Source: Prolixibacteraceae bacterium (GTDB lineage: Bacteria; Bacteroidota; Bacteroidia; Bacteroidales; Prolixibacteraceae). Taken from it: DNA of 64,000 nt. Location of the stretch: assembly GCA_018648265.1 (NCBI GenBank), contig JABGRN010000005.1:26352-90351 (forward strand). The letters run 5' to 3'. The notes below the pieces were generated by a model. That model was given only the letters and a program-made list of their open reading frames with translations, was not told where the DNA came from and made no database searches. Below, piece after piece: positions 15,532-18,367 of this stretch; within the stretch, counting starts at the first letter, position 1, and the number at the start of each line of letters is the position of its first letter. The position numbers and the translations under genes are program-made.

Positions 15532-17154
15532 TTATGCTTCTGCAGGAACTAAATCTTTATTCTTTTTTGTAGGAGGAGTAAAAATTCCAATTACACCTTT
15601 TAATCCAACACTCATTGCAATGTTGAAGAAAAATGCAAGAAAAGAAATTAGAAGCAAGGCTCCACAAATTGCTGCTAAAATCATGTACAGGTTATATTCC
15701 CCGTCAAAATAAATAGTACGGCGTAACATTCCTTTTAATCCGGCCATTCCCATAAATGCCCCCATTCCGATTCCTCCAACGAGATGAGTCCAAAAGTGAA
15801 AATTGGTCAACTTGTTACTGTACAATTTTGCCCCGTTTGTAAGAATTGGGAACAGAAAGTAAATAGCAGAATAAAGTGTCATCGATAAACCAACCAATAT
15901 TGCAACATGAACGTGTGGCCCGATAATCCATTGAGTATTGTGTAGAATTCGGTTTAATCCAATATCGGCTTGCATAATTCCGGCAGGTACTGCCAATGCA
16001 AAACCAAGTAATCCACCCAATAAAAATTTAAGGGGAGCAGTCATTTTAAGTGGCCGTGCACTCCAAAGTGTAGCCAAAACAATAAAGAATGCAAGTCCTT
16101 GCGTTATCAGCTCAAAAGCAGTCACCAATTCACCTGAAACAATTTTTAAAATTGCTGGCTGTGCCTGGTCAGAAAGTAGGTGGTGTGACCAAACTGTCCA
16201 TGAAACTATCAATTCAACTAATAATGCAGCCCTTGCAATATTTTGCATAAACAGTTTTTTCCCAGTAATTAAAGTAGCCAGTAAATACCATGTTCCGGCA
16301 ACAAATATTAAAACAAGTCCGTCAGCAATTAAATCGAGTCCCCACCAAAACCAGTTTTTATAAAGTAAAGCATCCACGGCAGAATGTTCCAGACTGTGCC
16401 CGAAAATTGCGGCAACCATGTAAACTAAAATTAAAACTCCGGTAAATAAAATAATCCCTGCATTTAAAGCAACATCAACCGTTCCGCGTGCTATTGCTGC
16501 AACTGGTAACGAAACAAGGTGTTTCTTCTCTTTTTTTGCGAAAATATTATAAAATCCATCTATTCCCAGGGCAGATTTTATAAGTTTTTTCGAAGGTTGT
16601 TTGTCCCAACCTTCGGGAGTGTACATTATTGTTTTAAAAATATTGATTACAAAAAATACAGTCCCAACCATTACAAGTGCAATCCCGGTAATAAACACAG
16701 CTCCGCCAATTGGACTAAATTGGCTGAAGTCGGCAGGCAGTGGCCAGTATAAAGTGTAAAGTGGTGCATAATGAGAAACAAATCCTGCCGCCCAAAAAAC
16801 AAAGGTTCCGATGGCAATTAAAAGGAAGGTCCAGTTGGCAAGTTTAATACTCCAAATTGGCTTTTTCATTAAAAATGGTACCAGGAACAAAAATGCCCCA
16901 AATACAATTAAATAGGTCGATCCGAAAATCCCTACCAGCGGGTGGGCGGTTAAAATAGCAAAATACTGATCTGCTCCAATTGAGGCAATTACCTGAACCT
17001 GGTAAATCCGCATTATCATTCCTTCAATGACCACAAATCCGTAATAAACCAATCCCATAACCACAAAACGGAGTGTGATTTTTTGCATTTGTGTGAGGCT
17101 GTCAGACTTAAATAATTTCTGTTCGCCCGATATTAATGTTTGAATAAAACTCAT
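15532..17154 (-). CDS. Heme-copper oxidoreductase subunit I, non-canonical (nitric oxide reductase-like)
   Basis: This 540-residue integral membrane protein has about 12-14 TM helices and the heme-copper fold. His71 and His416 fit the low-spin heme ligands, His414 the high-spin heme ligand (GPHVHVAIL), and His324-His325 two of the three metal-B ligands (WSHHLLSD). The helix VI motif, GHPEVY in oxidases or HLWVE in cNOR, reads DLIAD here. Asp274 replaces the first CuB/FeB His and Asp278 sits where cNOR has its FeB Glu. The Tyr of the His-Tyr crosslink is absent. This argues against oxygen reduction by the usual mechanism and for an NO reductase-like enzyme. It is co-transcribed with a CuA-less subunit II and an Rrf2 regulator. 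Alternatives are an atypical oxidase or an NO-detoxifying branch of unknown specificity. Confidence 0.85.
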   Translation of the reverse strand: MSFIQTLISGEQKLFKSDSLTQMQKITLRFVVMGLVYYGFVVIEGMIMRIYQVQVIASIGADQYFAILTAHPLVGIFGSTYLIVFGAFLFLVPFLMKKPIWSIKLANWTFLLIAIGTFVFWAAGFVSHYAPLYTLYWPLPADFSQFSPIGGAVFITGIALVMVGTVFFVINIFKTIMYTPEGWDKQPSKKLIKSALGIDGFYNIFAKKEKKHLVSLPVAAIARGTVDVALNAGIILFTGVLILVYMVAAIFGHSLEHSAVDALLYKNWFWWGLDLIADGLVLIFVAGTWYLLATLITGKKLFMQNIARAALLVELIVSWTVWSHHLLSDQAQPAILKIVSGELVTAFELITQGLAFFIVLATLWSARPLKMTAPLKFLLGGLLGFALAVPAGIMQADIGLNRILHNTQWIIGPHVHVAILVGLSMTLYSAIYFLFPILTNGAKLYSNKLTNFHFWTHLVGGIGMGAFMGMAGLKGMLRRTIYFDGEYNLYMILAAICGALLLISFLAFFFNIAMSVGLKGVIGIFTPPTKKNKDLVPAEA

Positions 17155-17183: not shown

Positions 17184-17738
17184 TTATAAACTCTCAACAA
17201 CTACTACCACATCTTTTTCAATCATAGCGATACCTTTCGGTCCCGAGTACTCGGTTGAACGGATACTGTAAACCCCCGGTTTGGTAAACTTCCAGAGAAT
17301 ATCGTTTTTGTGCCCAGGTACGACCTGCATTTGCATAACCATTGAATTGTCTTTTCTGAACAAGCCAAACCCATAAGTTAAATCGTTAGACGTAACGCTA
17401 AATTTTACGATTTCCCCAACTTCCATTTTTAACTTCTCTGATGGCAATTTGAATTCGTGGTTTTCAACTCCAATTTCAAAAGTGCGATCGGCAGTAATTG
17501 TTTTCATCTTTACATCAATAGGAGTCCACGGAATTGTGTTGTACGTAATAATGTGAAGGGAAACCCCCAGCACAGTTAGAAAGATTACAAAAGCGTAAAA
17601 CACACCCGGCTTTACTTTAGTACTTTTCCCTTTTGCAGTAACTTTTACCCCAAACCAAATCATCAATAAAATGATTACCGAGCAGTAAAAAGTGTACGCA
17701 AGTGTTTGTCCGGTTAGAACAATCGACGAATCAACCAT
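17184..17738 (-). CDS. Cytochrome oxidase subunit II-like cupredoxin lacking CuA ligands
   Basis: This 184-residue protein has two TM helices (about 8-30 and 45-66) followed by a periplasmic cupredoxin domain (about 75-184), as in oxidase subunit II. The CuA site is gone. The first His is Tyr122 (SNDLTYGFG), the two Cys are Ser161 and Ser165 (STEYSG), and the second His is Gly169. Only Glu163 and Met172 remain, and the sole Cys in the protein is in TM1. It therefore cannot carry CuA. The complex should take electrons another way, for example from quinol as quinol oxidases do, or through an unidentified cytochrome. It lies 29 bases upstream of the subunit I gene on the same strand and is preceded by an operator-like site at 17770-17795. 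Confidence 0.85.
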   Translation of the reverse strand: MVDSSIVLTGQTLAYTFYCSVIILLMIWFGVKVTAKGKSTKVKPGVFYAFVIFLTVLGVSLHIITYNTIPWTPIDVKMKTITADRTFEIGVENHEFKLPSEKLKMEVGEIVKFSVTSNDLTYGFGLFRKDNSMVMQMQVVPGHKNDILWKFTKPGVYSIRSTEYSGPKGIAMIEKDVVVVVESL

Positions 17739-17769: not shown

Positions 17770-17795
17770 AAATGCCACTAATTTGTAGTATTTTA
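17770..17795 (-). promoter_or_regulatory. Operator-like site upstream of the subunit II gene
   Basis: This is a 26-bp element with half-sites AAATGCCACT and GTAGTATTTTA (plus-strand reading), an imperfect dyad AATGCCAC/GTAGTATT. It lies 32-57 bases before the subunit II start codon. The same element, 22 of 26 bases identical with identical spacing, precedes the Rrf2 gene. It is most simply the binding site of that Rrf2 regulator. Confidence 0.75.
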
Positions 17796-17806
17796 TTTCA
17801 AAAAAT

Positions 17807-18217
17807 TTACAATTTCAACCCTGCATTTTGTATATCTTTTAACGAAGTTTTTGTCAACGTTTCAATAACTTTTCTTTTAGTTTCCTCCCAAATGTTGTGC
17901 ATGGGGCAAGCGTGATCGAAAGCACACGAATCATAACCTAAAATACATCCATCGATTGAATCCAGCCCGTCGATGGCAACCACAATTTCGATTAGAAATA
18001 TTTTCGAAATATCGCGTGCAAAAGCAAAACCACCCTGCCGCCCCTGAATACTTTTTATAAAACCGTATTTTGATAAATCGGTAAGCAAACGCCTTAAATA
18101 TCTTTCGGGCACATCAATTTCTTTATGTAGTTGCTGAGCCGAATACAATTCTTTTTCGTTTTTGGCCATTTGACCTAAAACTCGAAATGCGTACTTTGAT
18201 GTTTTACTTAGATTCAT
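17807..18217 (-). CDS. Rrf2-family transcriptional regulator, probable Fe-S NO/redox sensor
   Basis: This 136-residue winged-helix regulator has the Rrf2 signature: SKTSKYAFRVLGQMAK at the N-terminus, recognition-helix region VPERYLRRLLTDLSKYGFIKS, and wing GRQGGFAFA. A C-terminal Cys cluster, Cys91, Cys98 and Cys104 with His107, matches the cluster-ligand arrangement of IscR (three Cys and a His) and resembles NsrR, so a [2Fe-2S] or [4Fe-4S] cofactor is likely. It is divergent from the 18398 gene and lies 68 bases upstream of the heme-copper subunit genes. Its own start codon is directly preceded by the operator-like site at 18219-18244. This supports autoregulation and control of the downstream oxidoreductase, probably in response to NO. 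The ligand assignment is inference. Confidence 0.9.
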   Translation of the reverse strand: MNLSKTSKYAFRVLGQMAKNEKELYSAQQLHKEIDVPERYLRRLLTDLSKYGFIKSIQGRQGGFAFARDISKIFLIEIVVAIDGLDSIDGCILGYDSCAFDHACPMHNIWEETKRKVIETLTKTSLKDIQNAGLKL

Positions 18218-18218
18218 T

Positions 18219-18244
18219 AAATGCCACTTGCATGTAGTATTTTA
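18219..18244 (-). promoter_or_regulatory. Operator-like site directly upstream of the Rrf2 gene
   Basis: Half-sites AAATGCCACT and GTAGTATTTTA have the same spacing as at 17770-17795. The site begins one base upstream of the Rrf2 start codon, so a bound protein would also cover the ribosome-binding region. This supports negative autoregulation. Confidence 0.75.
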
Positions 18245-18367
18245 CAAAAGAAGGAAATTATTTAATACTGTGGACTTTATTTTTTATGTTTTAGAAAATA
18301 TTTTTTGTGATTTTGCAGATAAAATTTGTACAATTAAAAGACAGAATAAAACTTAGTGAATAAACCT

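Follow-up and report, generated by a model that had tools for sequence, protein, structure and literature searches.

The closest described counterparts of the system reported here mostly belong to the Rrf2 family. NsrR of E. coli, Neisseria, Bacillus and Streptomyces shares with it the Rrf2 fold, three clustered cysteines and a dyad (here a candidate operator) at promoters, and likewise adjoins NO-reductase, Hcp and denitrification genes. The NsrR operator consensus is given as gATGyAT-N5-ATrCATc (Rodionov 2005, PMC1274295), which differs from the pattern AAATRCYAC-N6-GTRGYATTT of the lineage studied here, and the fourth ligand of NsrR is listed as Asp8 (PMC13404960). The NsrR of the Thermus nic cluster is also an Rrf2 NO regulator that lies beside NO-reductase genes and controls them, but it is described with the operator CTTGACCNNGGTCATGG and with a dual role as activator and repressor (PMC5748679). 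For Bacteroidota the nitrosative-stress regulator on record in the literature consulted is HcpR, which in Bacteroides, members of the same phylum as our organism, also governs Hcp and nitrosative defence (PMC13370916). HcpR, however, is of the CRP/FNR type and unrelated to Rrf2. In the open-licence literature we recognised no description of an Rrf2/NsrR-type NO regulator in Bacteroidota or in Sulfurimonas.

The locus lies in a window of 64,000 nucleotides from a Prolixibacteraceae bacterium (GCA_018648265.1, contig JABGRN010000005.1). All its elements are on the minus strand, where they follow each other in the order dyad 1, rrf2, dyad 2, subunit II and subunit I:

18245..18252, minus strand: putative -7-like box of the Bacteroidota type, TTCTTTTG, 2 nt ahead of dyad 1 (from the sequence).
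18219..18242, minus strand: candidate operator dyad 1 (AAATACTACATGCAAGTGGCATTT when read along the genes); 74 of 81 lineage loci keep a dyad ahead of rrf2.
17807..18217, minus strand: Rrf2-family regulator, 136 aa, with Cys91-Cys98-Cys104-His107 (PF02082, 98.6 bits).
17799..17802, minus strand: TTTG 5 nt upstream of dyad 2, a possible second promoter (weak; from the sequence).
17770..17793, minus strand: candidate operator dyad 2 (AAATACTACAAATTAGTGGCATTT when read along the genes), in the gap that separates rrf2 from subunit II (from the sequence; counterparts in relatives).
17184..17738, minus strand: small cupredoxin-type subunit II, 184 aa, probable NO-reductase subunit (weak CoxB match, TIGR02866 32 bits, under the cut-off).
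15532..17154, minus strand: heme-copper subunit I, 540 aa, probable non-canonical NO reductase (PF00115, 182 bits).

An initial annotation of the window had reported a shared 26-bp repeat in front of rrf2 and of the heme-copper genes, and this repeat proved to be real at 17770-17795 and 18219-18244. Both 26-mers contain AAATGCCACT-N5-GTAGTATTTTA exactly and are identical at 22 of 26 bases, since all four differences fall within the spacer. The symmetric unit is the 24-bp dyad AAATRCYAC-N6-GTRGYATTT at 18219-18242 and 17770-17793, which reads AAATACTAC-N6-GTGGCATTT on the minus (gene) strand in both copies. Dyad 1 is separated from the Rrf2 ATG (18217) by one base; dyad 2 begins 13 nt past the Rrf2 stop codon and lies 31 bases ahead of the subunit II ATG (17738). 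When up to three mismatches were allowed, the 26-mer pattern matched twice in the window and in none of 100 dinucleotide shuffles. Throughout the 5.58-Mb genome only two places match the dyad without mismatch, both at the Rrf2/heme-copper locus, while at up to three mismatches there are 61 places, a number near that of a backwards-pattern control (51). The genome has one place with a single mismatch, on contig C89, which we ruled out as an operator because it is a terminator-like stem with a T run. Dyad-like palindromes were seen upstream of a small membrane-protein gene (CD225-like by eye) on G000:C89 (L106, 2264-2293) and G042:C26 (L097); of the two, the one in L106 is scored as a terminator when the minus strand is read.

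We then considered the conservation of the dyad upstream of rrf2. Among 140 family genomes, the relatives of this Rrf2 stand apart from other Rrf2 proteins at E values of about 1e-27 or lower and were taken as the lineage. All of the first 22 lineage loci (L018-L039) carry a form of the dyad (up to 4 mismatches) upstream of rrf2; L035 (-76) and L036 (-78) have it further out, the other 20 between -24 and -29. It is found upstream of none of the next 8 Rrf2 genes (L040-L047), which are outside the lineage. A fixed dyad score of 18 arm positions was applied to the window and 80 named loci (81 in total). Upstream of rrf2, 74 of these 81 loci score at least 14 and 68 at least 15; many of the 80 named loci are closely related among themselves, and the counts therefore do not equal independent events. 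Of the 81 loci 21 had already been seen when the dyad was defined. Among the 60 that took no part in its definition, 53 score at least 14 and 50 at least 15, against 6.9% and 1.0% of first-order Markov resamples. No member of a set of 20 order-level Rrf2 genes outside the lineage reaches 14 (maximum 13). A dyad scoring at least 14 is missing upstream of rrf2 in seven loci (L151, L154, L157, L167, L188, L202, L204). L154 and L151 have one scoring at least 15 downstream of rrf2 instead, and L157 has one scoring 14 there. L206 was counted as a match at 14, probably by chance (shuffle p about 0.1).

Conservation is concentrated in the arms. In the window and six close relatives the arms are 94% and 90% identical and the spacer 55%; identity is 69% in the 12 bases before the dyad and 34–47% at 13–100 nt upstream. 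With all 74 sites included, arm identity is 79% and 75% and flank identity 35–42%. Most Campylobacterota loci (L212-L216) have the dyad as TAATTCTACC-TTTN-GGTAGTATTT or near it, without a -7-like box; L218 has a dyad of another form and L206 none that is convincing. Absence of the motif upstream of orthologs had been named as an observation that would speak against a binding site. The motif is instead kept in the lineage, with conserved arms and diverged flanks, and it does not extend to the sampled Rrf2 genes outside of it. The proposal that the dyad is a candidate binding site of the encoded Rrf2 protein is supported by this lineage-linked conservation. At one locus (L072/L249, G024:C327) two dyads scoring 16 and 15 are located about 48 nt apart upstream of rrf2, possibly a tandem operator.

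The -7 box of Bacteroidota promoters has the consensus TAnnTTTG, of which TTTG is the end. The dyad begins 22–32 nt before the rrf2 ATG in 63 of the 81 loci, and for these abutting sites a TTTG starting 6–12 nt upstream of the dyad is present in 38 of 63, compared with 21 of 189 background windows. TTTG or TTGA is found 5–12 nt upstream in 11 of 29 second sites. In L168, L174 and L186 the dyad is located 46–76 nt from the ATG with a TTG(CA) element directly abutting it, which indicates that in these loci it tracks the promoter and not the start codon. With a -7-like box just upstream, the dyad would cover the predicted transcription start. This arrangement favours repression: the dyad appears to be placed as a repressor operator would be.

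The initial annotation had further described one copy in front of subunit II. This copy is real in the window, but a second dyad is not typical of such loci. Past the rrf2 stop codon a second dyad (score at least 15) is present in 28 of the 80 named loci, starting 12–16 nt past the stop in 25 of the 28. It is found in 17 of 26 qNOR loci compared with 5 of 25 heme-copper loci (4 of 24 named loci and the window). Of the six loci most closely related to the window, four lack it (L139, L141, L142, L143), and their operons must consequently be read from the rrf2 promoter or from an unseen one. The two-site layout is a recurrent architecture that is kept here and no general rule for the heme-copper operon.

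Which genes neighbor the regulator was assessed in 71 of the 80 named loci, namely those with a downstream ORF; identities come from a family search for representatives and from BLAST clusters for the remainder. Directly downstream of rrf2 we found qNOR in 26 loci, the heme-copper pair in 24, a NarG operon in 3 (with a nitrate/anion transporter plus NarG) and, more rarely, NorC-NorB and Hcp (2 each), altogether 57 of 71. Among the representatives, the qNOR of L182 has PF22085 plus COX1, the Hcp of L155 scores 809.8 bits (cut-off 367) and the NarG of L148 scores 2029.7 bits (cut-off 1084). In four Campylobacterota loci (L212, L215, L216, L218) norB is divergent. These neighbors make NO the likely signal, and the hint at NO in the initial annotation gains support from the NO-related genes adjoining one and the same regulator lineage.

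In a tree of the regulators (140 columns, bootstrap not settled) the regulators encoded next to the heme-copper pair, NarG and Hcp fall into a single group with three unassigned rows (support 99/96). Within this group near-identical regulators stand next to different modules, as for L159 with the heme-copper pair next to L148, L152 and L153 with NarG. The paralogs are separate in the tree (98/71), and E. coli NsrR and IscR are located on very long branches (6.2 and 4.1). Judged from the sequences, the putatively controlled module changes while regulator and candidate operator stay. G055 has two lineage Rrf2 genes (L051, L067), one by a heme-copper pair and one by qNOR, each with its own dyad.

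The regulator itself is a clear member of the Rrf2 superfamily (PF02082, 98.6 bits against a cut-off of 30; TIGR00738, 104.6 against 73.3), but it scores far below the cut-offs of the NsrR model NF008240 (43.1 against 182 bits) and the IscR model TIGR02010 (54.9 against 207.6 bits). The NCBIfam scan gave a Suf regulator model at 70.9 bits, under its cut-off, and assigned the protein to no curated equivalog. Its structural model (pLDDT 89.9) has the Rrf2 fold and matches CymR (Z 17.0), IscR (15.7–14.9), RsrR (14.4–13.6) and NsrR (13.5–11.4, with 7b0c at 13.5). Cys91, Cys98, Cys104 and His107 are present as had been described; all 78 aligned rows have C91, C98 and H107, and 77 have C104. A single copy in G015 (L060, G015:C33) has Trp in place of Cys104 while the other G015 copies keep Cys, and may be a decaying or altered sensor. 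At position 8, where NsrR has Asp, the window regulator has Lys, and among the 78 rows Glu is commonest (57), with Lys in 11 and Asp in a single row; His107 of the lineage is in turn absent from E. coli NsrR. IscR likewise has three cysteines and His107, a fold matching at a Z of about 15 and a dyad ahead of its own gene. In contrast to IscR, no isc genes adjoin the lineage regulator, and IscR Glu43 is replaced by Arg or Lys in 69 of 78 rows. The operator of the lineage is also unlike the consensus sequences of the IscR boxes. The recognition helix reads YLRRLMTxLSK in the lineage and FLGKILQxLAK in the paralogs, a difference that fits a separate operator. As far as its sequence tells, the system appears to be NsrR-like by role, has an operator of its own, resembles IscR in its ligand set and is no NsrR member by the tests made.

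Subunit II is the regulator's neighbor at 24 of the 80 named loci; inspection by eye shows no CuA motif in it. In subunit I the His-His in TM7 and the His residues of TM10 are kept, and Asp274 and Asp278 are located in TM6, in 21 of 21 relatives. By hand alignment of TM6, which in subunit I and its relatives has the sequence NWFWWGLDLIADG, the two Asp take the places of the CuB His and the Tyr of oxidases. For gNOR an Asp is listed at the position of the active-site Tyr (PMC8756737, Table A4); D278 (21/21) fits this Asp by hand alignment of TM6 alone and with gNOR known from the table entry. A search for gNOR in seven Campylobacterota genomes gave no hit and carries no weight either way. The family of subunit I may therefore be an undescribed or a gNOR-like NO-reductase family. 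The AlphaFold2 model of subunit I (pLDDT 70) is too weak for an active-site reading. Hcp, qNOR-type NorB and NosZ gave no hit above cut-off in the genome itself. We counted this against an NO switch. On the whole of these data the heme-copper pair is likely a non-canonical NO reductase.

Subunit I was found at E 1e-100 or better in 21 of the 140 family genomes, and we inspected five copies without an adjacent Rrf2 gene, with the contig fragments L262 and L263 left out. In G006 (L255) and G004 (L257) the pair has neither an adjacent Rrf2 gene nor a dyad, and an ORF divergent from the pair is CRP/FNR-like (named by reading, without a family search), an apparent replacement of the regulator. The second heme-copper copy of G013 has no adjacent Rrf2 gene and no dyad, and the G049 copy is cut by the contig end. 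In G096 (L261) a 16/18 dyad is located 59 nt before subunit II, and a lineage Rrf2 was not found in this possibly incomplete genome. At up to one mismatch the dyad in 21 related genomes is mainly rrf2-linked, and no site of a wider regulon was found beyond the local operon: of 13 other sites (L093-L105) 9 are inside ORFs and the remaining 4 precede no recognisable NO gene.

Several other readings of the repeat have to be weighed against these data. Located by the start codon, it could form an RNA hairpin in the 5' leader and act through it on translation or stability. The dyad does end a few nucleotides before the ATG in most loci, and the perfect dyads of two relatives give stable RNA folds (z about -3.5). 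For the window copies, however, shuffled sequences fold equally well (z -0.14 and -1.09), and the pairs of the dyad are often mismatched (pair 5 in 37 and pair 2 in 28 of 74 sites), and on these grounds the hairpin was rejected. In L144 and L140 the second site moreover has its asymmetric half-sites flipped, and in the three relatives mentioned above the dyad stays by the promoter-like box and not by the ATG, so that we give this reading very little credence. An equally slim chance remains for binding of the dyad by another regulator of the locus, e.g. a nitrogen-oxide regulator of the CRP/FNR type. Such a regulator would suit G096, where the dyad precedes the heme-copper pair and no lineage Rrf2 was detected, but the dyad goes along with the Rrf2 lineage in different genera and phyla, and G004 and G006 have the divergent CRP/FNR-like ORF and lack the dyad.

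More weight, though still that of an unlikely alternative, falls to a different signal for the Rrf2 protein. In that case the dyad would be its operator, with the protein sensing O2, redox or the status of iron/Fe-S, like IscR or RsrR, and the neighbors would be genes of anaerobic respiration generally. The Cys-Cys-Cys-His107 ligand set is indeed that of IscR and not that of E. coli NsrR, and the models of IscR and the Suf regulator outscore that of NsrR (54.9 and 70.9 against 43.1 bits, all under cut-off). NarGH, the putative target in 3 loci, is not specific to NO, which we also counted against the NO reading. The commonest neighbors, on the other hand, are NO reductases (26 qNOR, 2 NorCB) and Hcp and not genes of Fe-S assembly or oxygen metabolism.

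By comparison the dyad is well supported as a candidate operator. That it is the operator of the adjacent Fe-S Rrf2 protein, an NO-released repressor of rrf2, subunit II and subunit I, is the explanation we consider probable. G004 and G006, with neither an adjacent Rrf2 gene nor the dyad, speak for it; the seven lineage loci that have no dyad upstream of rrf2, the scarcity of dyad 2 among heme-copper loci, the missing wider regulon and the dyad of G096 speak against it. The regulator would keep the operon that it heads (rrf2-subunit II-subunit I) repressed, and in this genome would act likewise on an internal promoter ahead of subunit II. As long as the cluster at Cys91, Cys98, Cys104 and His107 is intact, a dimer would occupy AAATRCYAC-N6-GTRGYATTT downstream of the -7-like box and block RNA polymerase. 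NO or related nitrosative stress would damage or nitrosylate the cluster, the protein would come off its site, and the cell would make the heme-copper pair, in our reading a non-canonical NO reductase. Binding, repression, the cluster, NO as the effector and the NO-reductase activity are parts of this scheme that we infer.

The recurrence of the dyad beside NO and nitrate genes points to an unstudied NO switch. Somewhat short of an even chance, we think, is the broader reading that an unnamed Cys3-His Rrf2 subfamily of Bacteroidota, Chlorobiota-labelled MAGs and Campylobacterota is an NO switch with the fixed operator AAATACTAC-N6-GTAGTATTT, whose modules are swapped among qNOR, cNOR, Hcp, NarGH and a two-Asp heme-copper NO reductase. 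Binding, cluster and NO response are addressable with one protein and one 40-bp DNA. If true, an Rrf2 switch that is widespread and whose operator is readable would offer a direct route to NO-controlled genes in common sediment lineages, and an unassigned heme-copper pair would be marked as an NO reductase and hence as a possible source of N2O.
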